This document shows positions 4,960 to 33,768 of a DNA stretch of 64,000 nucleotides, in pieces. The DNA is from Sulfurospirillum sp. UCH001 (lineage in GTDB: Bacteria; Campylobacterota; Campylobacteria; Campylobacterales; Sulfurospirillaceae). The number at the start of each line of letters is the position of its first letter. Within the stretch, counting starts at the first letter, position 1. Location of the stretch: positions 124,001-188,000 of the forward strand of contig NZ_AP014723.1 in the NCBI RefSeq assembly GCF_001548035.1, written 5' to 3'. Both the position numbers and the translations under genes were made by a program. The notes beneath the pieces are model-generated. The model did not search any database, was not told where the DNA came from, and worked only from the letters and a program-made list of their open reading frames with translations.

Positions 4960-4993
4960 TTAGAGACAAAAAAGAAATTTCAAGTGAGAATGG

Positions 4994-6583: not shown

Positions 6584-6592
6584 AGGCTTAAT

Positions 6593-7080: not shown

Positions 7081-7101
7081 AACTAAAAAAGGAGTTCATG
7101 T

Positions 7102-9276: not shown

Positions 9277-9300
9277 ATATTTTAATAGTGTTTAGTAGAG

Positions 9301-9330
9301 TTAGTGAAGGGACTTTAAGTCCCTCACTAA
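9301..9330. terminator. Hairpin between convergent glcB and cytochrome c genes
   Basis: TTAGTG-A-AGGGACTT and AAGTCCCTCACTAA form a 14-bp stem with one bulged A and a tiny loop. There is no strong T-run on the plus side. It sits exactly between the two convergent stop codons, so a shared terminator is likely. Confidence 0.55.
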
Positions 9331-9333
9331 AGA

Positions 9334-9630: not shown

Positions 9631-9702
9631 TGTAACTCCTTATAAGAATAATAGAAGAATTATATAGATTAAAAGTGAATTTATCGTGAAATAAAAAAGT
9701 AA

Positions 9703-12064: not shown

Positions 12065-12067
12065 GGT

Positions 12068-12664: not shown

Positions 12665-12674
12665 TCTATTTCCT

Positions 12675-13628: not shown

Positions 13629-13635
13629 TTTTCCC

Positions 13636-18729: not shown

Positions 18730-20421
18730 TTACGTTCTAAACTCAGAGAGTTTGAGGTTGAGTGTTTCAGTCATACGGCTAAGGTGTTCTGCTGCACTTG
18801 CTATCTCTTCAACACTGCGTGCATTTTGACTTGAAATGTCGTTAATTTGGTTAACGTCTTTAATCATTGACTCAATATCCAAGCCTGTTTTGAGGTAATT
18901 TTCAGTTGTTTTATCGGAAAGAGTTGTGGCATTATTCATCACTTGGAACATGTTGTTGATCTTCGTTTCAACATCACATGCCGTGGTTGCTAAAGATTCA
19001 ACTTTTTTAGAGTTAGAGGTCATTTGATCACTACTATCAACAATGGCTTGAACGATAACATTGATCGTAGCATTGATCTCTTGAAGACTTTTTTGTGTAC
19101 GTTCTGCAAGTTTTCGTACTTCATCGGCAACAACTGCAAATCCTCGTCCATGTTCACCCGCACGTGCTGCTTCAATTGCCGCGTTAAGAGCAAGCAAATT
19201 GGTTTGATCAGCAATATCGCCAATAACTACTAAAATGTCTTTAACTTGAGTAGCATCTGAACTCAGTTGCTGTATACGATGCGCCAACTCAATCTCTGTA
19301 GCGGCACTGCTTTGAATGTCTTTTGTAAGTTCTAAAATGGCGTTATTTGCATCTTTGAGGAAATCATTGGCTTTAATGAGTTCGGTTTTTCCTTCTTTAG
19401 CCTCACTAATACCTTCTGTCAGTTCATCTTTTAAGGTAAATGCTTTGTTCGTTGTATTTCCCACAATTTGCATAGAAGTTTCTACAGCGCGTCCAACTTC
19501 AAGCGATGTTGAAGAGAGTTCATGAGAAATAGACGAGTTTTCATTGGAAAGGTTTTTTGCTTCACTGATTAAGATACGTACTTTCTCGATAAAGCGATTA
19601 ATGCTACTGCTTGCAACTGCAATTTCATCATTGCCAATGACTTCAAGCTTACGTGTAAGATCACCATCACCGCTTGAGAGGTTATCGGCTCTTGCAATAA
19701 GATCATTAAGTGGTTTTGAGATCGTTTTTGAAATAATCACAAAAGTCGCACCGAGGCTTAAGAGCAATAATACTACAGAGATCGCAAGGAAAGATTGGAT
19801 TTGAGAAGCTGTATTTTCATCAATATTTTTTTGAAGATGTGCAACCTCTTCTTCAACATTATCTACATAGATGCCTGTACCCATCATCCAGTTATAAGGC
19901 TCAAAGGAGAGGGCATAAGAGAACTTTGGAAATGGCTTACCATCTTTTGTTTTTGGAAAATGATACTTAACAAGACCACCACCTTTTTTAGCAGCTTCAA
20001 TCAATTCTTTAATGAGGAAAACACCATTACTGTCTTTTACCGTGATTAAATTTTTTCCCTCTTGTGTTTTATTGGTAGGGAATAAAACAGATGTTCCATC
20101 ATATTTATAGACAAAAATATACCCTTCTTTGTCGTCGAAAAAGCGTAGGTCATTAAACTTATCTAAGATCGCTTCTTGGATCTTTTCATCACTGACACCC
20201 TTTGCTTTTTGTGTTTTATAGATAGATTCTGCTGTTTGCTTCATGATATCCATAATGGTTTTGAGTTCATTTTCGTGAAAAGCATAAGCGCTTTTTTCAT
20301 ATTCTTCGATGAACATACGTGCATTATTTTTTGTGTTGCTGTAGGCCACACCAATAATACAGGCTCCTAACACTATCAAAGATAGTATAAGGGAGATTAA
20401 AATCCGAGTCGAAATCTTCAT
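18730..20421 (-). CDS. Methyl-accepting chemotaxis protein, single-Cache sensor (copy 2)
   Basis: 563 residues, the same length and architecture as copy 1: helix 7-27, sCache_2-type sensor ([23 protein letters not shown] ... [22 protein letters not shown]), second helix, HAMP and signalling domain. The two share almost all residues of the signalling half, while the sensor differs at many positions, so they probably read different ligands through the same kinase. A local tandem duplication with later exchange in the 3' half explains this. Divergent from the MFS gene. Confidence 0.95.
18734..18846 (-). repeat. Near-identical 3' block of the tandem chemoreceptor genes (copy 2)
   Basis: Partner of 16851-16963; 112 of 113 bases agree by eye. 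Confidence 0.9.
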
Positions 20422-20463
20422 ATGGAGGCCCCTTGTTTTATTAGGTTTATGAGTTAAACGTGC

Positions 20464-20469
20464 ATTTTA
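20464..20469 (-). promoter_or_regulatory. Possible -10 box of chemoreceptor copy 2
   Basis: TAAAAT on the minus strand (GCTAAAATGC), 43 bp before the ATG. Weak evidence; a flagellar sigma-28 promoter was looked for and not recognised. Confidence 0.3.
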
Positions 20470-20497
20470 GCATAAAAAAAGTTTCAATGAAAAGCGC

Positions 20498-20503
20498 TAC
20501 AAT
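20498..20503 (+). promoter_or_regulatory. Probable -10 box of the MFS transporter gene
   Basis: TACAAT in GCTACAATGG, 27 bp before the ATG, followed by the ribosome site TTAGGAGCAG. Confidence 0.45.
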
Positions 20504-20529
20504 GGCAATGAAAGAAATTAGGAGCAGAA

Positions 20530-21720
20530 ATGAAACAGTATGTTGAGTTGTTGAAAGACAACACAACGCTTCGTCGTTTAAGTATTGTTCAGTTGATTAG
20601 TTATTTTGGTGCGTGGTTTAGTCACATGGGAATTTACACCTTATTAATTCAACTAAACGCCCCTGTATGGGCACTAAGTGCAGCAGCAGCATTGACGTTT
20701 TTACCCTCTATGCTTTTAGCACCTTTTAGTGGTGCGATTATTGATAAAGTTGATACTAAAAAGTTTATGCTCTTTTTGACGGCTATTGAGATCATTACCG
20801 TTTTTTGGCTAATCTTTATTCATTCTTTGGATGCACTTTGGATTTTATTGGGGCTTATTTTTATTCGTATGGGGACTGGGAGTATCTATTTTCAAACAGA
20901 AATGTCTCTTTTGCCAAAAATTTTGAGTAATGAAGAGTTGAAAATTGCCAATGAAATTCATTCTATTATTTGGTCTATTTCATATGCTTTTGGAATGGCA
21001 GTTGCAGGATTTTATGTTCACTATTTTGGTACGACAAGCGCGTTTGTTGCTGATATGATGCTTTATAGTATTAGCTTTTATCTTCTTTTAGGTCTAGATA
21101 TTCCTTCCATTGCAAGTGAACAAGCGTCGAAGGTTAAAGAAATGATTTGGAGTGGTTTTGTCTATATCAAAGAAAATCCAAAAATCATGCATCTTATTTT
21201 TCTTCATGCCAGTGTTGGGTTAACCGCATATGATGCACTCATTGCCCTTTTGGCGGACCATCAGTATAAACATCTTTTATCGGTTGCCCTAGTTATGGGT
21301 TTTATCAATGCTTCTCGTGCATGTTCACAAGTCCTTGGGCAATTTTTGCTGAGTCGATACATTACTCCTCAAACGCTTTTTTATATTTTTCTCATTCAAG
21401 GTGTTGGGATTATGGCATGGGGTGTATTGCAGTACGATTTTTATCTGAGTTTTATTGGAATTTTCTTTTGTGGACTTTTTACAACAAGTTTATGGTCCTA
21501 TACTTATACCCTTTTGCAGTATGAGACAGATGAGGCTTTTTATGGCCGTGTTATAGCTTATAACGATATGGTTTTTATGGGAATGTGCACATTGGTTTCA
21601 TTTATGATTGGTGCACTTTTCGAGTGGGGTGCTCCTTTATGGGCAATTACCTCTGGTTTAGGGCTTTTATTTATCTTTTTTGGGTTTTATTGGAAGTGGG
21701 TACAAAAAGTGATAAAATAG
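20530..21720 (+). CDS. MFS transporter
   Basis: 396 residues with about twelve membrane helices. The loop between helices 2 and 3 (FSGAIIDKVDTKKFM) matches the major facilitator signature GxxxDrxgrrk, and the general pattern resembles the MFS_3/EntS-like group of exporters. Substrate is unknown. The coding region closes with a short basic tail. It is followed 22 bp later by an HD-GYP gene and the two may share a transcript. Drug or small-molecule efflux is a family-level guess only. Confidence 0.85.
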   Translation: MKQYVELLKDNTTLRRLSIVQLISYFGAWFSHMGIYTLLIQLNAPVWALSAAAALTFLPSMLLAPFSGAIIDKVDTKKFMLFLTAIEIITVFWLIFIHSLDALWILLGLIFIRMGTGSIYFQTEMSLLPKILSNEELKIANEIHSIIWSISYAFGMAVAGFYVHYFGTTSAFVADMMLYSISFYLLLGLDIPSIASEQASKVKEMIWSGFVYIKENPKIMHLIFLHASVGLTAYDALIALLADHQYKHLLSVALVMGFINASRACSQVLGQFLLSRYITPQTLFYIFLIQGVGIMAWGVLQYDFYLSFIGIFFCGLFTTSLWSYTYTLLQYETDEAFYGRVIAYNDMVFMGMCTLVSFMIGALFEWGAPLWAITSGLGLLFIFFGFYWKWVQKVIK

Positions 21721-21742
21721 TTTCTTTTTGAGGAGGAAGTTG

Positions 21743-23332
21743 ATGAATATTCGTACAAAAGTAAAATTGAGCTTTAGTATTATCATTGCGATGTTGCTAT
21801 TTTTGGGCTTTATTAGTGCGATTATTACCTACCAAATCAAAGAAAATAGCAATTTTAGAGAAAGTATCGCAGCTATTCTTTTGATGCAAGAAGGGATGAA
21901 CGATATTATCAGAGAAAGTACTCAAAGCACAGAAATCGCCAAGTTAGAACAACTTCATACGAAATTTGTGGCATTTGAAAAGAATTTTGAAGTGATGAGA
22001 GAAACACTTTCATCGCATAAAAATTCTTTATTAGCAAGTGTCGTGATGCTAAATATTCGCGAAGATAAAACAATTCAAAACTATTTGAATGAACTCTATA
22101 CAAATGAACATCGCATTGAGTTGATGTATGATGAGATTTTTAAACTTGCACGTGAAAAATTAGATTATATCACTATTTTTAATGCACTCTATCCAGAAGA
22201 AAATCGTGCGCGTCTTGAGATTCAAGAGCATATTTTAAAAACTAACCGTATAGACCAAATCAAAGCCTTAAGTGATTTAAGATATTACAGTAAAGAGACA
22301 CTTTATCAACATGGTAACGAAGCAACATTGCAAAAATGGCTCGTACCTATTAACCTGCTGATTGATTTAACCCATAAAGAAAACAATGTTATAGCAGAAA
22401 ATCTGCGACAGTATCGAGAAATTGTGAGTATCATAGCAGATAAAGCTATTAAAATCGAGCAGACAAAAGCTATTGAAAACAAAACGATTTTAGAAGCTTC
22501 AAAAGTATTGGAAAGTAACAAAAATGTAAGTGTCTCTCTCGAAGAGACTCTCTCGAAATTATCAAGTGGTTTTATTGACCAGATGCGATTCATTCAGCTT
22601 TTTGTAGGAATAGTGACCATTCTTTTTATTATTTTCCTTGCTATCAAAGTTTCTCGCAATGTTTCTTTGACTATGGATGAAGTTGAGGCAAAAATAGAAG
22701 AAGGATTACAAGAGGTTAATGCACTCAATCATGAAATTGAAGATACCCAAAAAGAAGTTCTTTTTACGATGGGTGCTATTGGTGAGAGTAGGTCTCGTGA
22801 GACAGGAAATCACGTTAGACGCGTCGCAGAGTATTCTAAAATGCTTGCATTGCACTATGGTTTGGATGAAGAAGAAGCAGAAATGCTCAAACTTGCTTCT
22901 CCAATGCACGACATAGGAAAAATTGCTATACCTGATGCTGTGCTCAATAAGCCAGGGCGATTTGATGAAGAAGAACGCAAAATCATGGACACGCATGCAA
23001 TGAAAGGGTATGAGATGCTCCAACACTCGCAAAGACCTCTTTTAAAAATGGCAGCCATTGTTGCTAAAGAGCACCATGAACGTTATGATGGCAAGGGTTA
23101 TCCTGATAAAAAAAGTGGTGAGGATATTCATATTTATGGACGTATTACAGCACTTGCGGATGTTTTTGACGCATTAGGGAGTGCTAGGGTATACAAGCCT
23201 GCATGGGAAGATGAAAAAATCTTTGCTTTATTTAAAGAAGAGAGAGGTAAGCAGTTTGATCCTAAACTGATCGATATCTTTTTTGAACACTTAGATGAGT
23301 TTTTAGAGATACGAGAAAAAATGAAAGATTGA
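21743..23332 (+). CDS. Membrane HD-GYP domain protein (probable c-di-GMP phosphodiesterase)
   Basis: 529 residues from ATG 21743, chosen because GAGGAGGAAGTTG precedes it. Helices at about 8-30 and 280-305 flank a large helical periplasmic domain. After a short coiled coil comes the HD-GYP domain: HDIGK (the HD metal ligands), HAMKGYEML, HHERYDGKGYP with the GYP triad, and DVFDALGSARVYKPAW. HD-GYP enzymes hydrolyse cyclic-di-GMP, so this should link an external cue to motility or biofilm decisions. All metal ligands that I can recognise are present. Confidence 0.92.
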   Translation: MNIRTKVKLSFSIIIAMLLFLGFISAIITYQIKENSNFRESIAAILLMQEGMNDIIRESTQSTEIAKLEQLHTKFVAFEKNFEVMRETLSSHKNSLLASVVMLNIREDKTIQNYLNELYTNEHRIELMYDEIFKLAREKLDYITIFNALYPEENRARLEIQEHILKTNRIDQIKALSDLRYYSKETLYQHGNEATLQKWLVPINLLIDLTHKENNVIAENLRQYREIVSIIADKAIKIEQTKAIENKTILEASKVLESNKNVSVSLEETLSKLSSGFIDQMRFIQLFVGIVTILFIIFLAIKVSRNVSLTMDEVEAKIEEGLQEVNALNHEIEDTQKEVLFTMGAIGESRSRETGNHVRRVAEYSKMLALHYGLDEEEAEMLKLASPMHDIGKIAIPDAVLNKPGRFDEEERKIMDTHAMKGYEMLQHSQRPLLKMAAIVAKEHHERYDGKGYPDKKSGEDIHIYGRITALADVFDALGSARVYKPAWEDEKIFALFKEERGKQFDPKLIDIFFEHLDEFLEIREKMKD

Positions 23333-23392
23333 TTTCACAAAGAGTTCACAATTTTGCGTTAGGATTTCTTCATAAAAGCAAAGGAGTCCCAA

Positions 23393-23734
23393 ATGAAAAT
23401 CGTAAAAACTGTTTTGATCTCAATTGTGTTAGTCTTAAGTGGCATCACAAGCGCTCATGCAATGGGCGATAGAGAAAAGGGTGCTCTCATGGGTGCGGGA
23501 GCTGTGCTCTTGTTACCATCATTACTTGAAGGTGCAGGCAATTTATTTAGTGGAGGACAGAGAACCTATACAACGACAACTTATGTTGAACCAAGACCAA
23601 CAGTAGTGTATAGAGAACCTGTGTATGTGCAAGAGAGAGTGATCTACATTGATAATCCTCCTCCAAGATACTATTACCCACCACGTCATCATCACCATGA
23701 TTATGATGATAGATACTACCGCTCTTATCGATAA
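23393..23734 (+). CDS. Small exported protein with Tyr/Pro/His/Arg-rich tail
   Basis: 113 residues. Signal peptide of about 23 residues ending TSAHA, a glycine-rich hydrophobic patch (KGALMGAGAVLLLPSLLEGAGNLF, described by its position 30-53), then a tail rich in Tyr, Pro, Arg and His (RYYYPPRHHHHDYDDRYYRSYR). The histidine run could bind metal. I do not recognise a family. AAAGGAG precedes the ATG, and a perfect hairpin follows, so the gene is probably transcribed alone. Confidence 0.7.
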   Translation: MKIVKTVLISIVLVLSGITSAHAMGDREKGALMGAGAVLLLPSLLEGAGNLFSGGQRTYTTTTYVEPRPTVVYREPVYVQERVIYIDNPPPRYYYPPRHHHHDYDDRYYRSYR

Positions 23735-23752
23735 GATCAAAAAGTTCAAAAC

Positions 23753-23790
23753 ACAGGTAGCGACACCCATCGCTACCTGTCTATCTCTTT
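23753..23790. terminator. Bidirectional terminator
   Basis: ACAGGTAGCGA (23753-23763), loop CACCCA, TCGCTACCTGT (23770-23780): perfect 11-bp stem, then CTATCTCTTTT. It lies between convergent genes and abuts the methyltransferase stop. Confidence 0.8.
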
Positions 23791-24419
23791 TGCAATACTG
23801 CTATACGTTTTCCATCCGTTTTAATCAACGCTAATCCACATTTTTTTGCCAAGATTTCAAGTGTTCTTGGTGTATAAAAAATAATATGCGTAGGATCTCT
23901 GCGATACCACCATTTCAAAAAGTGTTCTTGTTCATTTTGATGAAATAGTGTCATGAGTGCGATGATACCCTTAGGTTTTAAATGATTCGCTAAAAGAGTA
24001 AGTGTTGCTTGTGGATCATCTAAGTGCTCAAAGACTTCCGTTGAGGTGATAAAATCATAACTTTGGTTTTCAAAACACTTTATAGGTTGATAAAACTTAT
24101 CATAACAATCGACATAAGTACCTCTTTTGTGGAGCAATTGGCTAAGTACAGGTGTTGGACCTGAGCCAAAATCAAGCGATCTTTCTTTGTTTGAAAGATC
24201 ATCCCAAAAATAATCTAAAAAATCTTCAAACATCTTCACATAACCACTGTTTTCAAGTGAATTTTGATGGTTGTTATAAAGCGCATTTTCTTTTTCTAAA
24301 GAGAGAAAATACGTTGGATCAAGTGCAATACAATCGCAATTTAGGCAATGATAATAGTGTTTGTTAAGCTGTGGATCGTTAAAAGATTTTGTATCGCAAT
24401 CGCAAATTTTACATTTCAT
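23781..24419 (-). CDS. Class I SAM-dependent methyltransferase with N-terminal Cys-rich knuckle
   Basis: 212 residues. The first 35 hold cysteine pairs (KCKICDC, HCLNCDC) typical of a zinc knuckle. A Rossmann methyltransferase follows, with the SAM-binding motif LDFGSGPTP and the acidic/aromatic stretch FITSTEVFEHLDDP, ending in TPRTLEILAKKCGL. The substrate is unknown; methyltransferases with such knuckles often act on sugars, small molecules or tRNA. It stands alone on the minus strand, divergent from the binding-protein gene. Confidence 0.82.
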   Translation of the reverse strand: MKCKICDCDTKSFNDPQLNKHYYHCLNCDCIALDPTYFLSLEKENALYNNHQNSLENSGYVKMFEDFLDYFWDDLSNKERSLDFGSGPTPVLSQLLHKRGTYVDCYDKFYQPIKCFENQSYDFITSTEVFEHLDDPQATLTLLANHLKPKGIIALMTLFHQNEQEHFLKWWYRRDPTHIIFYTPRTLEILAKKCGLALIKTDGKRIAVLQKR

Positions 24420-24505
24420 TGTTTAACTCTTTTTTCTTTTTTCGAAAAAAATTATTTAAGTAAATATTTTTTTACTAATTAAGCATTTTTATAAAAAATA
24501 CTTGA

Positions 24506-24511
24506 TATTAT
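24506..24511 (+). promoter_or_regulatory. Probable -10 box close to the Liv-type binding protein start
   Basis: TATTAT in TTGATATTATAG, only 14 bp before the ATG at 24526, so the leader would be about 8 nt and without a ribosome site. Confidence 0.4.
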
Positions 24512-24525
24512 AGCTACAAAATATT

Positions 24526-25704
24526 ATGAAAGTTCAAAAAATGCGTAAACTTCTTGGAGTTCTCCTTGTAGTATTAGCCCTTTTACTACCTTACTATATC
24601 TCCAATACTAAATTTCAAGGTGATGTTATACGTTTAGGCATGAGTGGACCTTTTAGTGGTGGGCTTAATAGCGTTGGAAATGAATTTTTACTTGGTGCCG
24701 AAATCTATCTAAAAAATCTTAATGATCATGGCGGCGTGAATGGTAGGAAAATAGAGATCATTGCAAAAGATGATCGATATGAACCTAAAATTGCTGTTGA
24801 AAATGTTCATGAGCTTATTAATAAAGAGAAAGTGTTTGCTTTATTTGGGATTATTGGTACACCTGTAGCAGAAGCTGTTTTCCCTATTGCTATTGAAAAA
24901 CGCATTCCTTTTGTGGGTGCATATTCAGGTGCAGAGTTTTTACGAAATCCCCCTAACCCTATCGTTTTAAATGCAAGAGCAGGTGATCTTGATGAGATCG
25001 AAAAGCTCGTGCAGTACTATGCTGATGATCTAAAATATAAACGTTTTGCGCTGTTTTATCAGAATGATGGTTATGGAAGAGCTGGGCTAAATGGTGTTAA
25101 GAGTGCGCTTGCAAAGCGCAATTTAGTACTCGTTGGTGAGGGAAGTTATAAGAGAAATACACTCTCCGTAGGTAATGCACTTTATGAAATTGAATTGTGT
25201 AATCCAGAAGTTATTTTAATGATAGGCTCAACAACTCCTGTTGCAGAATTTATTAAACGCGCTCGAAAGAGCACAAAAATTCGTAAAGAGGTTCAGTTTG
25301 GACTTTTCTCTTTTGTTGAACCAAAACCTTTAATTGATCTTTTAGAAGGCAAAGGAGCAGGGATTACCTTTGCGCAAGTCGTTCCTTCCCCTTGGACATC
25401 TGAAGTTGATGAAGTAGAGACTTATCGTATTTTGATGCGAAAATATTATCCAAAAGAAGAATTGGGACATGTCTCTTTGGAGGGATATTTTGCGGCACGT
25501 ATGATTGCGGAAGTCTTTAAAAGTTTAGGGCGTGATTTTACAAAAGAAGAATTTATCAAAGCATTAGGGGCTTTTTCGAAAACCCTTGATGAAACAGCAG
25601 TCTCTAAAAACAGAGATGAGCGTTGCAAATGTTTGCATCGTGTACATTTGAGCGAATATGTGGATGATGACTTTTACTCTGTAGGGAAAAGTGATGAGCG
25701 CTAA
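24526..25704 (+). CDS. Liv-type periplasmic binding protein acting as a sensor subunit
   Basis: 392 residues. An N-terminal hydrophobic segment (about 6-25) is followed by a Peripla_BP_6 fold: IRLGMSGPFSG-like start, NDHGGVNGRKIEIIAKDDRYEP, ALFGIIGTPVAEAVFPIA, FALFYQNDGYGRAGLNGV and a C-terminal GHVSLEGYFAARMIAEVFK. Such proteins bind amino acids, amides or related small molecules. No Liv permease or ATPase gene is nearby; instead the stop codon overlaps a histidine kinase start by up to 14 bp. I infer that it presents a ligand to the kinase rather than to a transporter. The N-terminus may stay uncleaved as an anchor. Confidence 0.88.
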   Translation: MKVQKMRKLLGVLLVVLALLLPYYISNTKFQGDVIRLGMSGPFSGGLNSVGNEFLLGAEIYLKNLNDHGGVNGRKIEIIAKDDRYEPKIAVENVHELINKEKVFALFGIIGTPVAEAVFPIAIEKRIPFVGAYSGAEFLRNPPNPIVLNARAGDLDEIEKLVQYYADDLKYKRFALFYQNDGYGRAGLNGVKSALAKRNLVLVGEGSYKRNTLSVGNALYEIELCNPEVILMIGSTTPVAEFIKRARKSTKIRKEVQFGLFSFVEPKPLIDLLEGKGAGITFAQVVPSPWTSEVDEVETYRILMRKYYPKEELGHVSLEGYFAARMIAEVFKSLGRDFTKEEFIKALGAFSKTLDETAVSKNRDERCKCLHRVHLSEYVDDDFYSVGKSDER

Positions 25705-27307
25705 TCCTTTTAATGATTTTATGGGTAGCATCGATGAGATGACCATCGCGAAAAAGACAACGCTTCTTTTTCTCATTATGGTTGTGGGTATGCTGTTCAT
25801 TGGTAGTTTTGCACATATGAGTATTAACCGTATTAAAGATAACTTTGATATTTTATATACCAAACGTATGCTTCCTACCATTCGTCTTGAAAACCTCAAA
25901 GATATTTATACCGTAAATATCTTGGATACTATTCGAGATATTGAAAAGGGCTCTATTAGCGCAAAAGAGGGACAAGTGGTCATAGCTCTTGCCCAAGATT
26001 TAATTAAAATCGAACTGCAAGAGTATAAAAATAGCTTGGGAATTGATGAAAGTGACTGGTTGATTAAGCTAGCGCGTTCATGGGGACTTATGCATGAAAG
26101 TCGTCAGCCATACTATAAAACAAAAGAGGATGATATCCTAACTTCTAAAATTGAACAGAAAATACATACCATAGATGGAATTTTGCTCAAAATGTTTAGT
26201 TATTTTGAAACAAGACAAGGTTTAAAAGCGATAGAAACGTTGCAAAATGAACTATATCCGAGTGTTTATTCGATCAATATTGATTTAACGGGTCTTATCA
26301 ATCTCAATCTTGACGGTGCAAAAGAAGGATATGCTAGAACCGCTAAAGTATATGACAATACCTTTGAGTGGATTGTTGTTGCTACACTTGGTACTATCGC
26401 TTTTGCGGCACTTCTAGCTATTGTGCTTTTACAAAATATTCGTTTACTTCATGCCAGACTTGCCAAAATGGTTGATGCAAAAACACAAGAGTTACAACAG
26501 CTGAACCGCGATCTAGAACTCAAAGTGCAATACGAAGTTGAACAAAGTCGCCAAAAAGATCAGATCATGTTTCGTCAATCAAGACTCGCTTCAATGGGCG
26601 AAATGATTGGAAACATTGCACATCAGTGGCGTCAACCGCTGAATGCCATTGTGCTTATTATTCAAAGTTTTCAGATGAAGCGTATGGCAGGATTAGAATT
26701 AAGTGATGAATTTATTGATAAGCAGGTCAATGAAGGGATTCAGTTAGCCTCACTGATGTCTCGTACCATTGATGATTTTCGTAATTTCTTCAAACCAAAC
26801 CATAGCGAAGAAGATTTTAGTGTTAAAGAGACAGTGTTATATAGTCTTAAATTGATACAAGAGTACTACGCAAAATCAGGGATTGAGATTTTTCTAAATT
26901 GTAGCAATGATATTCAAATTAGCGGCTATCCTAATGAATTTTCACAAGTAGTTATGAATCTTCTTAGTAATGCCAAAGATGCGCTTGAAGAAAAAGAGAT
27001 AGAAGAAAAACTCATTGAAGTAGTCATAACAAAAGAAGCAAATAATGCAGTTATCAGTGTGATAGACAATGGTGGAGGGATTAGTGAAGAAGTGCAAGAT
27101 AGGATGTTTGAACCCTATTTTACAACGAAGCATAAAGCCTCAGGAACAGGTATAGGGCTTTATATGTCCAAGCAGATTATTGAAAAACAGATGAAAGGAA
27201 GTATTAGTGGAACGAACATTACCTATATTTTCCAAAATGGCAAACGTTATGAAAAATGTGCGATTCTAACAATTTTAGTACCACTTAAGAAGAAGGAGGA
27301 AAAATAA
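25691..27307 (+). CDS. Sensor histidine kinase coupled to a binding protein
   Basis: 538 residues from the GTG at 25691 (an ATG follows at 25694). Membrane helices near 20-42 and 222-246 enclose a helical periplasmic domain of about 180 residues. A coiled coil leads to MGEMIGNIAHQWRQPLNAI, the HQWRQPL form of the phospho-acceptor site widespread in Campylobacterota, then VVMNLLSNAKDALEE, DNGGGISEEVQDRMFEPYFTT-type G boxes (in two parts) and GTGIGLYMSK. It should be switched by the upstream binding protein and signal to the regulator that starts 1 bp later. Confidence 0.93.
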   Translation: MMSANPFNDFMGSIDEMTIAKKTTLLFLIMVVGMLFIGSFAHMSINRIKDNFDILYTKRMLPTIRLENLKDIYTVNILDTIRDIEKGSISAKEGQVVIALAQDLIKIELQEYKNSLGIDESDWLIKLARSWGLMHESRQPYYKTKEDDILTSKIEQKIHTIDGILLKMFSYFETRQGLKAIETLQNELYPSVYSINIDLTGLINLNLDGAKEGYARTAKVYDNTFEWIVVATLGTIAFAALLAIVLLQNIRLLHARLAKMVDAKTQELQQLNRDLELKVQYEVEQSRQKDQIMFRQSRLASMGEMIGNIAHQWRQPLNAIVLIIQSFQMKRMAGLELSDEFIDKQVNEGIQLASLMSRTIDDFRNFFKPNHSEEDFSVKETVLYSLKLIQEYYAKSGIEIFLNCSNDIQISGYPNEFSQVVMNLLSNAKDALEEKEIEEKLIEVVITKEANNAVISVIDNGGGISEEVQDRMFEPYFTTKHKASGTGIGLYMSKQIIEKQMKGSISGTNITYIFQNGKRYEKCAILTILVPLKKKEEK

Positions 27308-27308
27308 T

Positions 27309-27968
27309 ATGGATTTTAATAGTTTAAAAGATTGTGTCGTGTTGTATGTTGAAGATGAAAAATCAGTACAAATGCAAACTCAAATGATTTTAAGAGATTT
27401 TGTTAAAGAGGTTTACCTTGCATCAAATGGTGAAGAGGGTCTTAAAATAGCATTAGAGAAAGATGTAGATATTATCGTCACTGATATTGTTATGCCTGTA
27501 ATGAACGGCATAGAGATGCTCAAAAAACTTAAAAAAGAGTATAACCGAGACATTCCTGTCATCATTACAACAGCGTTTACGGAGACAGATTATTTGATTG
27601 AAGCGATTACGCTGAAAGTGGATGGTTTTATTATGAAGCCAATCAATGTTAAAGATTTGATTAGCAATATTTACACCGTTATGCTTCCAAAACTTCACAA
27701 CAAAGAGTTGCAAGGATGTTCTTTTATTATTGAAGGACTTGCAGCGCTTATTGGTGGTAAAAAGATTGAGATTTTGAAGTATATCATCAACCATTTGGAT
27801 GAAAATAAGATATTTAATGGTTCGTATCAAGATATTATTGATAATATTGGTGTAAGTAAACCTACCGTTGTACATATGTTTCAACAACTCATTAAAGTAG
27901 GTATATTAGAAAAAGTGAAAAATAAAATGTATCGATTCCGCAATACAAAACTCATTGGAGATCAATAA
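27309..27968 (+). CDS. Response regulator with RepL-like winged-helix output
   Basis: 219 residues. Receiver domain 1-120: acidic pair EDE near 16-18, phospho-acceptor in DIIVTDIVMPVMNGIEM, and lysine in FIMKPINVKDL. The C-terminal ~85 residues (GGKKIEILKYIINHLDENKIF ... SYQDIIDNIGVSKPTVVHMFQQL ... ILEKVKNKMYRFR, in parts) look like the helix-turn-helix of RepL plasmid initiators rather than OmpR, NarL or NtrC outputs. It starts 1 bp after the kinase stop and is clearly its partner. Targets are unknown. Confidence 0.88.
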   Translation: MDFNSLKDCVVLYVEDEKSVQMQTQMILRDFVKEVYLASNGEEGLKIALEKDVDIIVTDIVMPVMNGIEMLKKLKKEYNRDIPVIITTAFTETDYLIEAITLKVDGFIMKPINVKDLISNIYTVMLPKLHNKELQGCSFIIEGLAALIGGKKIEILKYIINHLDENKIFNGSYQDIIDNIGVSKPTVVHMFQQLIKVGILEKVKNKMYRFRNTKLIGDQ

Positions 27969-28487
27969 ATGAAAAAAGTGGTTTTAGTTTTACTCTTAGG
28001 CATTTGGAGTGCTCTTGTAGCAAGTGAAGTTGTGTTTGAAACAACACAAGGAAAGATAGTGTTCGCACTTAAACCTGAAGTGGCACCCAAAGCGTGTGAA
28101 AACTTTGAAGGATTAGTCAAGAAAGGGTATTATGATGGCATAACATTTCATCGTATTATTAAAAACTTTATGATTCAAGGTGGCGATCCTACTGGAACAG
28201 GTCGAGGTGGGCAGTCTATCTATGGTCAACCGTTTGAAGATGAGTTCAAACCCAATGTTATGTTTAATAAAGCAGGCATCCTAGCAATGGCAAATGCAGG
28301 TCGCAATACCAATGGAAGTCAATTTTTTATCACCACTGTTCCTACACCACATTTGAATGGAAGACATACAATTTTTGGTGAAGTGATTGAGGGAATGGAT
28401 GTTGTGCATAAGCTTGAAAATGTTGTAACTGATGGTAGAGATATGCCAATGCAACCACAAAAAATTCTCAAAGCGTATTTAAAATAA
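27969..28487 (+). CDS. Periplasmic cyclophilin-type peptidyl-prolyl isomerase
   Basis: 172 residues with a signal peptide (about 1-19, ending ALVAS). Catalytic arginine in FHRIIKNFMIQGGDPTGTG, plus ILAMANAGRNTNGSQFFIT and HLNGRHTIFGEV. The tryptophan that confers cyclosporin binding in human cyclophilin is histidine here (TPHLNG), as in many bacterial enzymes. It catalyses proline isomerisation during folding of exported proteins. The ATG follows the regulator stop directly, so the gene is the last of this operon. Confidence 0.93.
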   Translation: MKKVVLVLLLGIWSALVASEVVFETTQGKIVFALKPEVAPKACENFEGLVKKGYYDGITFHRIIKNFMIQGGDPTGTGRGGQSIYGQPFEDEFKPNVMFNKAGILAMANAGRNTNGSQFFITTVPTPHLNGRHTIFGEVIEGMDVVHKLENVVTDGRDMPMQPQKILKAYLK

Positions 28488-28492
28488 TTTAA

Positions 28493-28873
<381 letters not shown>

Positions 28874-28878
28874 AATTT

Positions 28879-28920
28879 AAGCCAAGTGATTAAATTTTAA
28901 CCACTTGGCTTTTCCTCTTT
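28879..28920 (+). terminator. Terminator between glnB and amtB
   Basis: AAGCCAAGTG (28879-28888) and CACTTGGCTT (28902-28911), 13-nt loop with partial pairing, then TTCCTCTTTTTTG. It separates, or attenuates between, the two genes. Confidence 0.8.
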
Positions 28921-28924
28921 TTTG

Positions 28925-28930
28925 TACAAT
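28925..28930 (+). promoter_or_regulatory. Probable -10 box of amtB
   Basis: TACAAT right after the terminator's T-run, 39 bp before the amtB ATG. No sigma-54 GG-N10-GC element was recognised. Confidence 0.4.
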
Positions 28931-28968
28931 TATCCGTTACACTTTATTTCACTCAAAGGGCATATGTA

Positions 28969-30150
28969 ATGGATGTATCTCATATTCAATATGTTATTGA
29001 CACTTTCTTTCTCCTTTTTGCTTCCGTTTTGATTATTTTCATGGTTCCTGGCTTTGCCATGCTTGAAGCAGGGCTTGTCCGTAGTAAAAACGTTTCGGCA
29101 GTGCTTACTGGCAATGTGATGCTTTATGCTATTACCTCATTTATCTTTTTGCTTTGGGGATATAACCTTATGTTTGGAGGCAGTGGCTTTTTCTTAAAAG
29201 GCGTTGCTGTTGAAGGGTACAGTGCCTATGCTTATTTTTTCTTCCAGATGGCATTTGTGAGTAAAACAGTCTCCATTATGAGTGGTGGTGTGAGCGAGCG
29301 TATTCGTATTATCCCCTTTATGATTTTTGCAGTTTTAATGAGTGGATTTATCTATCCTATGGTTGGTAATGCTATTTGGGGTGGAGGATTTTTAAAAGAC
29401 GTTCATGATCTTGCAGGATGTACTGTCATTCACTCTGTAGGCGGGTGGGCATTATTTGCTGGTATCTTGGTTTTAGGTGCTCGTCGTGGAAAATACAGTA
29501 AAGAAGGGCATGTTAGAGCAATTCCCGCGTCTAATATACCTTTAGTCACTCTTGGTGGGATGCTTCTTTGGATTGGTTGGTTCGGTTTTAACGGCGGAAG
29601 TGCATTTAATATATCGAGTCCTGAAAAAGCAGATCTTGTAGGTTCTATTATTGTAAATACCAATACAGCAGGGCTTGCTGGTGCGATTATCGCAGCGTTT
29701 ATTGTCTATTTTCAGTATAAGAAACTTGATATTACGATGATTCTCAATGGGGCTCTTGGTGGACTCGTCGCCATTACTGCAAGTGCTGATGTGGTAGGTC
29801 TTTGGGAACCAATCGTTATTGGTGCTGTTGGTGGTGCATTGGTTGTTTTTGCTGTTCCTCTGTTTGATAAATTTCAGATTGATGATCCAGTAGGTGCGCT
29901 TTCTGTTCACCTAGTAAATGGTATATGGGGAACAATTGCAGTAGCTCTTTTTGCTGATTTTTCACTTCTTACACAACTTAAAGGCATTGTATTAACAGGG
30001 CTTTTCACTTTCCCTGTCTCTTATATTGCGTTTGTGATTATCAAAAAAGCGATTGGTCTTAGAAGCGATGAAGAGCATGAATATGTGGGACTTGATCTTG
30101 AAGAGTGTGGTTTGGAAGCATATCCTGAGTTTGTTAAATCAAAAGTCTAA
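28969..30150 (+). CDS. amtB: Ammonium transporter
   Basis: 393 residues, eleven membrane helices. The conserved pore histidines are present in VIHSVGGWALFAG and VHLVNGIWGTIA, with FMVPGFAMLEAGLVRSKN at helix 1 and NGALGGLVAITASAD in the second half. Conducts ammonium/ammonia into the cell and is blocked by PII at low nitrogen demand. No signal sequence of the E. coli type is evident; the protein starts directly with helix 1. Paired with glnB upstream. Confidence 0.96.
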   Translation: MDVSHIQYVIDTFFLLFASVLIIFMVPGFAMLEAGLVRSKNVSAVLTGNVMLYAITSFIFLLWGYNLMFGGSGFFLKGVAVEGYSAYAYFFFQMAFVSKTVSIMSGGVSERIRIIPFMIFAVLMSGFIYPMVGNAIWGGGFLKDVHDLAGCTVIHSVGGWALFAGILVLGARRGKYSKEGHVRAIPASNIPLVTLGGMLLWIGWFGFNGGSAFNISSPEKADLVGSIIVNTNTAGLAGAIIAAFIVYFQYKKLDITMILNGALGGLVAITASADVVGLWEPIVIGAVGGALVVFAVPLFDKFQIDDPVGALSVHLVNGIWGTIAVALFADFSLLTQLKGIVLTGLFTFPVSYIAFVIIKKAIGLRSDEEHEYVGLDLEECGLEAYPEFVKSKV

Positions 30151-30157
30151 TAGAAAA

Positions 30158-30180
30158 GAGGGGAGCCTTTTGCTCCCTCT
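30158..30180. terminator. Bidirectional hairpin between amtB and the aldo/keto reductase gene
   Basis: GGGAGC (30161-30166) and GCTCCC (30172-30177) with flanking purines/pyrimidines; a T-rich tail is clearest on the minus strand. Confidence 0.6.
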
Positions 30181-30181
30181 C

Positions 30182-31201
30182 TTATCCCATTGGATACAAA
30201 ATCTCTTTTTGAACTTTCTCACACTCGTTTAAAATCTCAGGTGTTAATTTTATTTCAAAGGCTTTGAAGCTCTCTTCTAACTGTGTTGCATAGCGCGCTC
30301 CAATAATCGTTGAAGCCACAAAATCAAAATGCATGCTCCAGCTCACGGCAAGCGTTACAGGGCTCATACCGTATTTTTGTGCAATTTCTATATATTTAGC
30401 TGTCGCGGTAACGGTTTTATCATTTACAAAACGCTTATACATGGCTTTTTGTCTAGGCTCTCCTGCATGCAAGTATTCTCCAAAACGTGTTTTTGGGTCG
30501 ATAAAGGCTTGATTGTATTTTCCACTTAAAACACCACCCGCTATAGGAGAATAAGGAAGTAGAGAAACTTTTTCTTTACGGCAGACGTTGGCAAGCTCAT
30601 CTAAAAATCGTGGGTTTAGGAGAGAAAAGTTATTTTGGATGGACTCGAAGCGAGAAAGTTTTTCATACTGTGAAATTGTGTTTGATTTGGTAAGTCCATA
30701 AGCGGTGTCGTTAGACGTACCGATGTAGCGTACTTTTCCTGATTTTACGAGTTCATCGAGGGCTCGCATGGATTCTTCTTTAGGAACAATTTCATCCGGC
30801 CAGTGAACTTGGTAAAGGTCGATGTAGTCTGTTTTAAGGCGTTTTAAACTTCCTTCAATCGCTTTTTGAATGTGAAAACGATCGATTGCTGTATACCCAT
30901 GGCGAATAGGGGGTACAAACCAACCATTTGCAGCACCTGCGATTTTGCTCGCAAGTATGATGCTTTCACGAGGCTTTGTGGCAAGCCATTCACTGATAAT
31001 TTCTTCAGTAACTCCAGCATAACTCTCTTTGGGAGGAACGGGGTAAAGCTCAGCAGTATCAAAAAAATTAATACCGCGATCAAATGCCGTATCAAGAATT
31101 TTAAAAGACTCTTTTTTGTCGCTCCAACTGCCAAAACTCATGGTTCCCATGCAAATAGGGGTAACTCTAAGACCACTTTTCCCAATGTAACGATATTCCA
31201 T
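30182..31201 (-). CDS. Aldo/keto reductase
   Basis: 339 residues from the ATG at 31201 behind AAAGGGTTGAAA. Family features: LGxSGLxVSPICMGTMSFG-like start (GKSGLRVTPICMGTMSFGSW), FFDTAELYPVPPKESYAG with the catalytic Asp and Tyr, ILASKIAGA with the Lys, and YIDLYQVHWPD with the His. An NADPH site is in the late IIGARYATQLEES. It reduces aldehydes or ketones; the physiological substrate is not evident. Sequence style is closest to Tas/YghZ-type members. It stands alone, divergent from pyrC. Confidence 0.9.
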   Translation of the reverse strand: MEYRYIGKSGLRVTPICMGTMSFGSWSDKKESFKILDTAFDRGINFFDTAELYPVPPKESYAGVTEEIISEWLATKPRESIILASKIAGAANGWFVPPIRHGYTAIDRFHIQKAIEGSLKRLKTDYIDLYQVHWPDEIVPKEESMRALDELVKSGKVRYIGTSNDTAYGLTKSNTISQYEKLSRFESIQNNFSLLNPRFLDELANVCRKEKVSLLPYSPIAGGVLSGKYNQAFIDPKTRFGEYLHAGEPRQKAMYKRFVNDKTVTATAKYIEIAQKYGMSPVTLAVSWSMHFDFVASTIIGARYATQLEESFKAFEIKLTPEILNECEKVQKEILYPMG

Positions 31202-31239
31202 TTTCAACCCTTTTAGTATTTGCTTGTGCAATTTTATCG

Positions 31240-31245
31240 TATAAT
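31240..31245 (+). promoter_or_regulatory. Probable -10 box of pyrC
   Basis: TATAAT (CGTATAATTAAA) 23 bp before the pyrC ATG, giving a short leader with AAAGG. Confidence 0.55.
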
Positions 31246-31267
31246 TAAATCAAAAAAGGCATTTATA

Positions 31268-32275
31268 ATGACCCATACTCTTATTTCCCCTTTAGATATG
31301 CACTTACATGTACGTGACGAAGTCATGCTCAAAGTAGTTGCACCTTTGAGTGCCCATAGTTTTTCAGGTGGAATTATTATGCCAAATATTATTCCTCCTA
31401 TTACAACAATTGAAGCGGCAATTGCGTATAAAGAGCGCATTATAAATGCTATTGGAAATAATGTGTTTGAGCCTTTGATGACACTTTTCTTTCGCAGCGA
31501 TTATACGCGAGAGTTTTTAAAAAAAGCTTCTTCACATGTCAAAGCACTTAAGCTTTATCCTTCAGGTATTACAACCAATTCTGAAGGCGGTGTAGCAAGT
31601 ATGGATATTGAAACATTGCGTCCTGTTTTAGAAGTTATGAGTGAGTTAGGACTCATTTTATGTGTACATGGTGAAACAAATGGCTTTGTCATGGACAGAG
31701 AAAAAGAGTTTGGTTCTATTTATGAAAGTCTAGCATCGGCATTTCCAAAACTGAAAATCGTAATGGAACATATAACATCCAAAGAGAGTGTTGCTCTTTT
31801 AGATAAATATGAAAATCTTTACGCAACCATTACGTTGCATCATTTGTTGATTACTCTCGATGATGTTGCTGGAGGAATGCTTCAACCCCATCTTTTTTGT
31901 AAACCAATTGCAAAACGCTATGAGGATCGTGATGCTCTTTTAAAAGTAGCTCTTGAAGCACATCCTAAAGTAATGTTTGGGAGTGATTCTGCGCCACATC
32001 CTATTCATAAAAAAGAGTGTTGTGGTTGTGCTGCGGGTGTTTTTACTGCACCTATTGCGTTGCAAGTTTTAGTGGAGTTATTTGAAAAACATAACGCATT
32101 AGCTTCGTTACAAGCATTTGTGAGTAACAATGCACAAACAATTTATGCCTACAAACCCCCTTATAAAGAGGTTGTTTTAGAAAAAAAACCATTTCAAGTA
32201 ACACACAGTTATGGTGATGTTGTCCCTATGTTTGCAAACGAAACACTCAGTTGGAGTATCAAACATGTCTTATAA
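31268..32275 (+). CDS. pyrC: Dihydroorotase (class II)
   Basis: 335 residues from ATG 31268, matching the class II PyrC length. Metal ligands HLH in DMHLHVRD, the carboxylated lysine in ALKLYPSGITTNSEGG, CVHGE, VMEHIT and the catalytic Asp in FGSDSAPHP are all present. Converts carbamoyl aspartate to dihydroorotate in pyrimidine synthesis. The end overlaps the start of a response regulator by 11 bp, an unexpected coupling of a housekeeping enzyme with signalling. Confidence 0.95.
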   Translation: MTHTLISPLDMHLHVRDEVMLKVVAPLSAHSFSGGIIMPNIIPPITTIEAAIAYKERIINAIGNNVFEPLMTLFFRSDYTREFLKKASSHVKALKLYPSGITTNSEGGVASMDIETLRPVLEVMSELGLILCVHGETNGFVMDREKEFGSIYESLASAFPKLKIVMEHITSKESVALLDKYENLYATITLHHLLITLDDVAGGMLQPHLFCKPIAKRYEDRDALLKVALEAHPKVMFGSDSAPHPIHKKECCGCAAGVFTAPIALQVLVELFEKHNALASLQAFVSNNAQTIYAYKPPYKEVVLEKKPFQVTHSYGDVVPMFANETLSWSIKHVL

Positions 32276-32930
32276 AATTCTCATTTTAGAAGATAATACA
32301 CTTCTTCTTCAAACACTTGAAGATTTTTTAAATGAGCATGGATATGAATGTACATTAGTGAAGAGTGGGAAAGAGGCTTTAAAACAATGTTTTGAGCATA
32401 AGTTTGATCTTTATCTCTTAGATGTTAAAGTTCCAGATATGAATGGTTTTGAGTTCCTCCAATCACTGAGAAGCTCAGGAGACCATACTCCTGCCATTTT
32501 TGTAACATCATTGAACGATCAAGAAAGTCTGACCAAAGGGTTTATGCTTGGAGGAGATGATTATATTAAAAAACCATTTGAATTAAGTGAATTACTGCTT
32601 CGTATCAAAGCACTTTTAGCCAGGGCAAAAGGCATTGTGGATGATTGGCTCATTATTGATGAGGTATATAAATTAAATTTGGCACGCAAACGCCTTTTTT
32701 ACAAGCATGAAGAGCTTGATATCAATCTTAAAGATTTTGAACTACTCTATTTGCTAGTCAAAGAACGAGGTAAAGTGGTAACCAAAGAGATGATACATGA
32801 GTGTCTTTGGAGCAGTAGTGAGGAGATTAATGAGGGTTCTATTAGAGTCTATATCAATAACCTCAAAAAAATTTTTGGAAAAGATGTCATTTTAAATATT
32901 CGGGGAATTGGGTATCGCTTTGAGAAGTAG
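32265..32930 (+). CDS. OmpR/PhoB-type response regulator
   Basis: 221 residues from ATG 32265, inside the last codons of pyrC. Acidic pair (LEDN, 8-11), phospho-acceptor Asp53 in YLLDVKVPDMNG, lysine in YIKKPFELSELL, and a C-terminal winged helix ending NIRGIGYRFEK. It is a near relative of the regulator at 11176-11850 in both receiver and layout. The overlapping kinase gene downstream is its partner. Confidence 0.93.
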   Translation: MSYKILILEDNTLLLQTLEDFLNEHGYECTLVKSGKEALKQCFEHKFDLYLLDVKVPDMNGFEFLQSLRSSGDHTPAIFVTSLNDQESLTKGFMLGGDDYIKKPFELSELLLRIKALLARAKGIVDDWLIIDEVYKLNLARKRLFYKHEELDINLKDFELLYLLVKERGKVVTKEMIHECLWSSSEEINEGSIRVYINNLKKIFGKDVILNIRGIGYRFEK

Positions 32931-33768
32931 TGATAAAATCTTTTTTATCCGCTCTATCATTGCTTTTAGCATTGCGATGTGTCTTCTTGCCGCTTTTGGA
33001 ATTCTTTTATGGGAATATTCAGGCGAATCTAAAATCTGGGTTATCGGCTCTATAGTTCTAGCATCATTCATCGGAGGGTATTTAATCGTTTCTTATACAC
33101 TCTCTTCACTCTTTAAAACGAATCGATTTTTAGATATTTTATTGAAAGATACGCTGCATGAACTCAATATCCCATTATCGGTTATCAATGCTAATCTTCA
33201 AATGCTTCAAGCAGAAGAAGATGATGAAAAAAAGATTAAGCGATTAGGTCGCATTGACTTGGCTAGTAAAGATCTTTATACACTTTATAAAGAGGTTGAT
33301 TATTACATCAAAAAAGAGATTCAAGAAGATGTGCGAGAAAAGTTTTATCTTGATGAACTTATTTGCGGTGTTGTTGAAAAACAAAAAGAGATGGCCGATG
33401 GCGTAGAAATTAACTATGATGTTTCTCATATAGAAATATTTGCTGATAAACATGGTTTGGCAAAAGTAATTTCTAACTTGGTGCATAATGCGCTGAAATA
33501 TAATAAAGATCATCAAGCAATTCGTATTTTTCAAGAAGAAGAGAATTTAATTATTCAAGATCATGGTGTGGGAATGAGTGAAGCAGAGCTTTTCTTAGCC
33601 TTTGATCGTTACTATCAGGTCGATACAACGAAAGAGGGATATGGTATAGGGTTGAGCTTAGTTAAGGCGTATTGTGATGAATTTAAAATCCCTTTACGTA
33701 TTAATTCGCAAAAAAATGTTGGAACCGATGTTATTTTAGATATTTCACACCTTCTAAATAAAAAATGA
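32908..33768 (+). CDS. Short sensor histidine kinase
   Basis: 286 residues if the TTG at 32908 is used; the TTG at 32920 is the alternative, and there is no in-frame ATG before the first helix. Two membrane helices (about 11-34 and 39-62) are joined by a very short periplasmic loop, so there is almost no external sensor. Phospho-acceptor in DTLHELNIPLSV, N box LVHNALKYN, and DHGVGMSEAEL with GYGIGLSLVKAY. It probably senses the membrane itself or a partner protein. The start overlaps the regulator gene by 23 bp. Confidence 0.87.
   Translation: MGIALRSSDKIFFIRSIIAFSIAMCLLAAFGILLWEYSGESKIWVIGSIVLASFIGGYLIVSYTLSSLFKTNRFLDILLKDTLHELNIPLSVINANLQMLQAEEDDEKKIKRLGRIDLASKDLYTLYKEVDYYIKKEIQEDVREKFYLDELICGVVEKQKEMADGVEINYDVSHIEIFADKHGLAKVISNLVHNALKYNKDHQAIRIFQEEENLIIQDHGVGMSEAELFLAFDRYYQVDTTKEGYGIGLSLVKAYCDEFKIPLRINSQKNVGTDVILDISHLLNKK

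Follow-up and report, generated by a model that had tools for sequence, protein, structure and literature searches.

Binding proteins with the Liv fold are familiar as transport receptors, and the locus described here raises the question whether such a protein can serve as the receptor of a two-component system instead. In a 64,000-nucleotide stretch of Sulfurospirillum sp. UCH001 (contig NZ_AP014723.1, positions 124,001 to 188,000; referred to as the window), the gene of a Liv-type binding protein, here called the receptor, directly precedes the genes of a histidine kinase and a response regulator. We consider it likely, with a probability of roughly 0.8, that these genes encode a three-component system with a membrane-tethered receptor, that a sister unit in the same genome (2.6 Mb, one contig) regulates formate dehydrogenase and that the window copy probably regulates its own operon. 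The three genes are:

24526 to 25704, + strand: receptor gene, Peripla_BP_6 (Liv/HAAT fold) binding protein of 392 amino acids (Pfam, AlphaFold2 model)
25691 to 27307, + strand: histidine kinase gene with transmembrane segment 1, periplasmic helical bundle, transmembrane segment 2, HisKA-like part and HATPase_c (open reading frame, Pfam, model)
27309 to 27968, + strand: response regulator gene, receiver and RepL-like C-terminal domain (Pfam)

An earlier note on this DNA had proposed a three-part sensor at 24526-27968, with a receptor-kinase overlap of up to 14 base pairs (bp), a regulator beginning 1 bp after the kinase and no Liv permease nearby. The open reading frames (ORFs) bear out these coordinates. 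The kinase starts with GTG at 25691 or ATG at 25694, giving an overlap of 14 or 11 bp, and 1 bp separates its stop codon from the regulator; no Liv-type transporter gene was found among the ORFs listed for 20000-33000 of the window. The receptor matched Peripla_BP_6 with 172.8 bits, above the curated cut-off of 31.7, and Peripla_BP_6, ANF_receptor and Peripla_BP_5 were its only Pfam families at an E-value of 0.001. Its AlphaFold2 model (predicted local distance difference test score, pLDDT, 91.7) has the corresponding fold, the best solved match being 4kv7 (Z 42.6, root-mean-square deviation 2.2 over 340 residues). The kinase matched 4HB_MCP_1 over residues 17-71 only (31.1 bits, cut-off 27) and HATPase_c above the cut-off, with HisKA slightly below it (24.1 versus 26.9); the TorS profile was matched weakly, from residue 248 on (58.2 bits, cut-off 676.5). 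The regulator scored 85.7 bits with Response_reg and 25.3 bits with RepL.

The pairing of receptor and kinase is nearly invariant among 298 Campylobacterales genomes, 74 of which contain the receptor. The first approximately 290 residues of 22 receptor-linked kinases were aligned and used as a query; 93 of 95 kinase-sensor matches of at least 230 bits had the receptor directly upstream on the same strand, and the other two lay at contig breaks. Of 101 receptor matches, 93 were followed by a matching kinase, and the remaining eight comprised three contig ends, three split kinase matches and two receptors beside other kinases, namely a hybrid kinase in locus L068 and a 947-residue HATPase_c protein in locus L105, both within Campylobacterales. 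Receptor and kinase genes overlap or abut in most loci, the overlap lengths being taken from the first ORF start codon and thus possibly overstated. A full kinase with a matching regulator next to it was present in 115 of 148 receptor-kinase pairs; the other 33 are unsorted, many of them being 4-kb loci that end inside the kinase. Filtering the 148 pairs for a regulator and a kinase longer than 440 residues (115) and removing duplicates gave the 104 triplets used below. The locus table holds one receptor per locus, most window-type units of the genus (L012-L027) were read as 4-kb loci and the formate-type matches of genomes G020 and G249 were left out. The receptor is thus co-encoded with kinase and regulator, and the three-part unit proposed earlier gains support from the linkage counts. 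An apparent natural receptor-kinase fusion in L169, a 1199-residue ORF, was rejected as the frame of this ORF differs from that of the receptor.

The N-terminus of the receptor is unlike that of transport receptors and contains the following feature:

24529 to 24603, + strand: N-terminal hydrophobic helix, residues 2-26, predicted uncleaved membrane anchor (model, motif comparison)

In the model these residues form a helix with a pLDDT of 86-93 by blocks. A peptidase-like motif past the hydrophobic core, scored by a simple motif rule for signal peptides, was found in 41 of 104 triplet receptors as compared with 17 of 17 transport controls. The unit receptors also had a higher mean peak hydropathy of the N-terminus (3.03 versus 2.38) and more aromatic residues near the core end (mean 2.54 versus 0.76), and a lipobox-like match occurred in only one of the 104. 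The controls, which combine the 14 of 30 transport loci (L219-L248) with a placeable start and three references from the own genome, are few and alike: the start of LivJ9 is over-long, L219 duplicates the own gene and several of the sequences hardly differ. The N-terminus is thus likely to be an uncleaved membrane anchor as judged from model and motif comparison, which agrees with the hydrophobic, uncleaved N-terminus suggested in the earlier note. The same note had called the receptor soluble; this is probably wrong because the protein looks tethered.

The periplasmic part of the kinase is a candidate for the docking of the receptor:

25826 to 26365, + strand: kinase periplasmic domain, approximately residues 46-225, candidate receptor-docking domain (model; membrane segments placed by eye)
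25886 to 25930, + strand: kinase residues 66-80 (LENLKDIYTVNILDT), several positions tied to receptor presence (alignment comparison)

The kinase model (pLDDT 78.7) consists of helices 19-85, 91-116, 145-173 and 177-332, and the turn from helix one to helix two, which is the membrane-distal end, has residues 66-85 on one side and 91-100 on the other. Weaker sensor matches identified 18 further loci (L201-L218), of which L201 and L202 do have a receptor, while L214, L216 and L217, with weak and different-looking kinases or receptors, were excluded from every count. The resulting comparison of 13 kinases without receptor and 106 with receptor revealed that K70, D71, N76, T80, V97, L100 and K157 are kept in 92-105 of the 106 receptor-linked kinases and in 0-2 of the 13 others, as for N76 (104/106 versus 1/13), T80 (105/106 versus 2/13) and K70 (100/106 versus 2/13). 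Most of the cytoplasmic positions listed, e.g. R287 and K289, are kept in both groups. The membrane-distal end of the bundle is therefore a likely docking site for the receptor.

The instructive case among the receptor-less kinases is L213 in genome G116 (locus positions 3925-7297). This locus is orthologous, with the divergent methyltransferase and glnK downstream as in the window, but it has lost the receptor gene. Its kinase keeps 10 of 26 periplasmic positions, compared with 16-22 in 24 window-type receptor-linked kinases, and 85 of 111 cytoplasmic positions, compared with 81-90; these positions were defined on the formate type alone, and the 24 comparison kinases include that of L118, whose receptor is split. 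In the sensor of the L213 kinase, a segment of approximately 33 residues is missing along with some of the conserved motif; some receptor-linked kinases (L102, L107, L109) are similarly shortened. No other binding protein was found among eight neighbour proteins of six receptor-less loci, a scan that covered part of the neighbours and also took in one receptor-less kinase and one downstream gene; these neighbours were isoprenoid, cell-wall, clamp-loader and Na+/H+ exchanger genes and one gene without family. Kinase residues 1-260 matched no solved structure by sequence up to an E-value of 1, and Foldseek with the kinase model returned mostly cytoplasmic kinase parts among the 50 matches listed.

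A probable target of such a system is suggested by a paralogous receptor-kinase-regulator unit in the same genome, the sister unit (locus L010, contig positions 2334000-2350000, locus positions 6641-10092), whose receptor is 39% identical to that of the window. It is followed by selA- and selB-like genes, and divergent from it lie genes for an iron-sulphur (Fe-S) protein, a TorD-like protein and FdhA- and FdhB-like proteins (all names by sequence reading); its FdhA frame is interrupted by TGA, as in selenocysteine enzymes. Among the 80 units of this formate type, a label assigned by best score, 69 have dehydrogenase genes divergent within three genes. In a midpoint-rooted tree of 75 of the 104 unit receptors, obtained after an 80% identity filter, and 13 outsiders, the formate type (56 rows) and the window type (17 rows) form separate clades, each with support 100/99; relatives from other phyla and L063 and L099, both labelled formate type, fall outside both. 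By similarity, the window type occurs only in family f1 among the 298 genomes.

An alignment of the upstream regions revealed a palindrome common to both units, AGTAAA-N6-TTTACT before the window receptor and GGTAAA-N6-TTTACC in the sister intergenic region:

24459 to 24476, no strand assigned: candidate operator, palindrome AGTAAA-N6-TTTACT upstream of the receptor gene (exact pattern match)

With a spacer of 6 and the outer base free, the site was present upstream of 74 of the 104 units (13 of 24 window-type, 61 of 80 formate-type), as compared with 0-1 of 104 for spacers of 2-5 and 7-11 and 6 of 2080 for single-base shuffles. When outer R and Y were required (RGTMAA-N6-TTKACY), 73 units retained it. 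Each exact form occurs once in the own genome, AGTAAA-N6-TTTACT in the window and GGTAAA-N6-TTTACC at the sister locus, and in 13 genomes of the genus the latter was found 22 times versus 2 for the reversed control. Formate-type units with a divergent dehydrogenase carried the site in 59 of 69 cases and those without in 1 of 10 (one contig-end locus omitted; Fisher p 3.9e-6, a value that overstates independence as the rows are related species). In 34 of 55 cases, 14-24 bp separate the site from the annotated Fe-S gene start, whereas its distance to the receptor start varies between 56 and 227 bp. Seven genomes, five of which have the unit away from the dehydrogenase, were searched genome-wide, and the loci were read for all sites in G116, G007, G136 and G100, three of four in G167, three of eight in G233 and two of ten in G151. 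The site precedes the dehydrogenase Fe-S gene in G116, approximately 3 kb from the unit, and on other contigs in G167 and G100; in G151, six of the ten sites are no more than 20 kb away from the receptor gene.

In the formate type, the palindrome is tied to the dehydrogenase. As three genomes have the site before the dehydrogenase even at a distance from the unit, formate dehydrogenase is most likely a target of the sister regulator, and the position of the site close to the start codon suggests that the regulator represses the dehydrogenase in one state. The sister unit probably responds to formate or to a compound linked with its oxidation. Of the four sites that the wider pattern matches in the own genome, the third is located 134 bp upstream of a second formate dehydrogenase operon, which is itself divergent from a ModE-like gene; the fourth is probably due to chance because the reversed control gives five. 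The second operon (L287, contig positions 2308000-2327000, locus positions 7184-14801) comprises genes for a TorD-like protein, a TGA-split FdhA, FdhB, a cytochrome and an FdhD-like protein; the palindrome stands between TorD and the ModE-like gene, and a tungstate-type ATP-binding cassette (ABC) uptake system is encoded nearby (names by sequence reading). In two other genomes of the genus (L268 and L274, at approximately position 1501), GGTAAA-N6-TTTACC lies between uppP-like and 2-hydroxyacyl-CoA-dehydratase-like genes, a possible further target.

For the window unit, the palindrome lies 50-67 bp before the receptor start, which indicates control of its own promoter. The neighbouring genes are:

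23781 to 24419, - strand: divergent methyltransferase gene (Pfam Methyltransf_23), sharing its intergenic region with the palindrome
27969 to 28487, + strand: cyclophilin-type peptidyl-prolyl isomerase (ppi), probably of the same operon (Pfam Pro_isomerase)
28535 to 28873, + strand: PII-like gene (glnK), probably of the same operon (ORF; name by sequence reading)
28969 to 30150, + strand: ammonium-transporter-like gene (amtB), of uncertain operon membership after a 95 bp gap (name by sequence reading)

The ppi gene begins on the base right after the regulator stop codon. All nine window-type loci L110-L118 have the divergent methyltransferase and a downstream glnK, and eight of them have ppi after the regulator; amtB stands after glnK in five of the nine, one of them cut. 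The ppi-glnK run recurs in 16 loci of a second locus set. This arrangement suggests that ppi and glnK are the output of the window unit, which probably controls its own promoter and hence the run receptor-kinase-regulator-ppi-glnK-amtB. Scans of the DNA for promoters gave counts close to those of shuffles (16 sites versus 20.6), and terminator scans yielded 5 versus 3.8. A chemoreceptor gene with dCache_2/sCache_2, HAMP and MCPsignal matches lies near the unit at 18730-20421 of the window (- strand).

Could the receptor nevertheless belong to transport, as an orphan subunit working with one of the two Liv permeases of the genome, and stand beside a two-component system by chance? Its Liv fold would allow this, and among the six Peripla_BP_6 proteins of the own genome two belong to Liv operons and two are tandem LivJ-like orphans, the others being the window receptor and that of the sister unit. 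The four BPD_transp_2 permease matches of the genome, however, equal in number the LivH and LivM genes read in the two Liv operons, both of which already own a receptor, and neither co-encoding with LivHMGF nor dependence on it was found for the window receptor. Moreover, 22 of the 74 receptor-bearing genomes had no BPD_transp_2 match; some of these are incomplete drafts, seven are one-contig assemblies, and G257 has both unit types with zero matches. This count strongly disfavours a transport role and suggests that the receptor acts in signalling and not only as a transport subunit; the near-invariant kinase linkage and the different N-terminus also speak against transport, and we regard that explanation as very improbable. 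The two orphans (L009, 9704-12110) lie without permease beside a gene resembling that of a methyl-accepting chemotaxis protein (MCP) and share 73-76% identity with the L008 Liv operon receptor. A role of the receptor as an accessory modulator of sensitivity or specificity, with the kinase bundle itself sensing as for CuaD and CuaS, has more in its favour: related kinases exist without receptor, one of them at an orthologous locus, and the two- and three-component forms of CuaDSR are both described as responding to the signal (PMC10384115). Nevertheless, this version is quite unlikely in view of the near-invariant linkage and of the decayed periplasmic motif in receptor-less kinases. The earlier note had named kinases functioning without the receptor as an observation that would refute it; related kinases without the receptor do occur, in 13 of 18 loci including the orthologous L213, which goes part of the way towards such a refutation, but much of the periplasmic motif is lost there. 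The other refuting observation named in the note, a linked Liv permease, was not found. The ligand would be bound by the receptor and not by the kinase, as suggested by the helical-bundle model of the kinase periplasmic part and by the decay of its motif in receptor-less kinases.

Other alternatives concern the target and signal of the window unit. Since only the outer base pair distinguishes the two palindromes, and AGTAAA or mixed half-sites also occur in formate-type units of other families, the window unit might be a redundant copy that acts on the sites and the signal of the formate unit and not on its own operon. We hold this to be unlikely since window- and formate-type receptors form two separate, well-supported clades and each exact palindrome form is found in the own genome once, at its own locus. 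The tethered three-component reading also has a version in which the window unit senses nitrogen status, with an amide, an amino acid or an ammonium-related compound as ligand, and acts on glnK-amtB. The recurrent ppi and glnK genes speak for this version, whereas amtB is absent after glnK in four of the nine loci L110-L118 and members of the family that lack a strong nifH match (e.g. G257, G213, G037 and G065) still have the unit. A link to nitrogen fixation, looked for by nifH matches in the family members, was not found, and nitrogen fixation is accordingly not the connection. We consider a nitrogen-status sensor a genuine possibility, with a chance somewhat below even.

Several observations weigh against the reading of a tethered three-component system with this operator. 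The related kinases without receptor imply that the helical bundle can work otherwise, and most of the 13 are distant; L213 alone represents an orthologous loss. In L118, the window-type receptor gene (5004-6144) is split into two frames of 146 and 222 amino acids with kinase and regulator intact, decay and sequencing error not being distinguished. The periplasmic residues K49, L66, W109 and K214 are kept with and without receptor, and the cytoplasmic residues F294 and E276 also differ between the two kinase groups. Distance correlation lends weak support to a contact of receptor and kinase, with a partial r of 0.30 between the receptor and the kinase periplasmic part (0.18 for the regulator as control), and the partial correlation with the cytoplasmic part, given the periplasmic part, is 0.60. 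A-x-A is rare in unit receptors (1/104) and controls (1/17) alike and hence does not discriminate between them. Not all units have RGTMAA-N6-TTKACY upstream, the counts being 13 of 24 for the window type and 60 of 80 for the formate type, and its four sites in the own genome compare with five for the reversed control; in G007 and G136, with three sites apiece, no site lies beside dehydrogenase genes. AGTAAA-N6-TTTACT, found 20 times in the 13 genomes of the genus, does not greatly exceed its reversed control (13), so that for this form only the position is telling.

A scan of genome contigs returned at least 80 loci with receptor relatives; the neighbours were read for 80 loci, eight of them without a call as a longer frame overlaps. 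Beyond Campylobacterota, relatives of approximately 33-43% identity stand beside chemoreceptors (MCPs) in nine loci checked and beside dCache_2-HisKA_3 kinases in nine loci, the latter assigned by similarity to one Pfam-checked kinase; a LuxR-type regulator accompanies the kinase in the two loci checked (L175 and L188). Formate dehydrogenase-like genes lie near five of the nine dCache-kinase loci (L175, L184, L188 weakly, L189 and L194), which are labelled Desulfobacterota, delta proteobacterium or just Proteobacteria. Some relatives, e.g. in Rhodocyclales, adjoin neither a chemoreceptor nor a kinase. With such partners the receptor clade looks largely sensory, its partner having been exchanged. 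A more far-reaching and tentative proposal, which we judge possible yet doubtful, is that the clade is a family of receptors for formate or formate-linked compounds. As a Liv-fold protein turned into a membrane-tethered extracytoplasmic sensor, it would work with one operator class for formate dehydrogenase across Campylobacterota, with another kinase type in Desulfobacterota and their kin and with chemoreceptors elsewhere, and the window copy would be a daughter re-wired to its own operator and to the PII/ammonium-transport operon. If true, the window copy would link an external signal to nitrogen control.

For the preferred tethered three-component system, the following mechanism can be proposed. 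The Liv-fold protein would serve as a receptor and not as a transport subunit; anchored in the inner membrane through its uncleaved N-terminal helix, it would close on a small ligand in the periplasm. It may then dock on the membrane-distal part of the kinase helical bundle and thereby change the phosphorylation of the response regulator, as is known for such kinases. The regulator, as the conserved sites suggest, would bind the palindrome RGTMAA-N6-TTKACY. In this way the sister unit would control the divergent formate dehydrogenase operon in response to formate or a formate-linked compound, and the window unit would control its own promoter and with it receptor-kinase-regulator-ppi-glnK-amtB.

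In Campylobacter jejuni, expression of formate dehydrogenase is described as controlled posttranscriptionally by FdhTU, and exact regulatory mechanisms are still called unclear (PMC6682613), and the remaining two-component systems of Arcobacter butzleri are characterised as too dissimilar to those of other bacteria for functional prediction (PMC2147049). A candidate sensor, kinase and regulator together with an 18-bp operator can now be offered for formate dehydrogenase, and the paralogue in the window adds a matching operator and a nitrogen-linked gene run. As about ten binding proteins are reported to have been shown by 2022 to act on sensor kinases (PMC9602780), a widespread tethered example with the Liv fold would add a receptor type to them. 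No description of this unit was found in the parts of the literature searched, and an earlier mention of Peripla_BP_6 receptors with kinases may exist. The paralogue pair and the receptor-less kinase represent natural experiments on the evolution of partners.

Among known systems, TorT-TorS-TorR of Escherichia coli, which responds to trimethylamine N-oxide, has in common with the window unit the combination of periplasmic binding protein, kinase and regulator. TorTSR controls a respiratory molybdoenzyme, as the sister unit appears to do. The family of TorT differs from Peripla_BP_6, and the window unit is distinguished from TorTSR by its anchor-like N-terminus and its RepL-like regulator. AioX-AioS-AioR, which responds to arsenite, and the related ArxXSR and ArrXSR are described as three adjacent genes beside a molybdoenzyme operon, with AioX as a structural homologue of PhnD and distinct from TorT in binding-protein family (PMC5908839). 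The same trio of genes is thus found next to a molybdoenzyme operon, but AioX is PhnD-like and does not belong to Peripla_BP_6, and the two systems are likely of independent origin. CuaD-CuaS-CuaR of Ruminiclostridium cellulolyticum, a cellobiose system, shares with the window unit a membrane-held binding protein for signalling, CuaD being presented as a predicted lipoprotein and as a second binding protein dedicated to this purpose; as described, it differs in having a binding protein of the 'Family 1' type, a lipid anchor in place of a helix and another kinase sensor domain (PMC10384115). The relatives with dCache kinases or chemoreceptors share related receptors and, in five loci, formate dehydrogenase-like neighbours, but differ from the window unit in the type of partner (MCP or dCache_2-HisKA_3) and, in the two loci checked, in the LuxR-type regulator. 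Finally, the Liv/HAAT transport receptors (LivJ, UrtA; nearest solved structures 4kv7 and 3lop) have the same fold and Pfam family as the window receptor, which in contrast to them stands without a permease, lacks a clear cleavable signal peptide and has a kinase as its partner.

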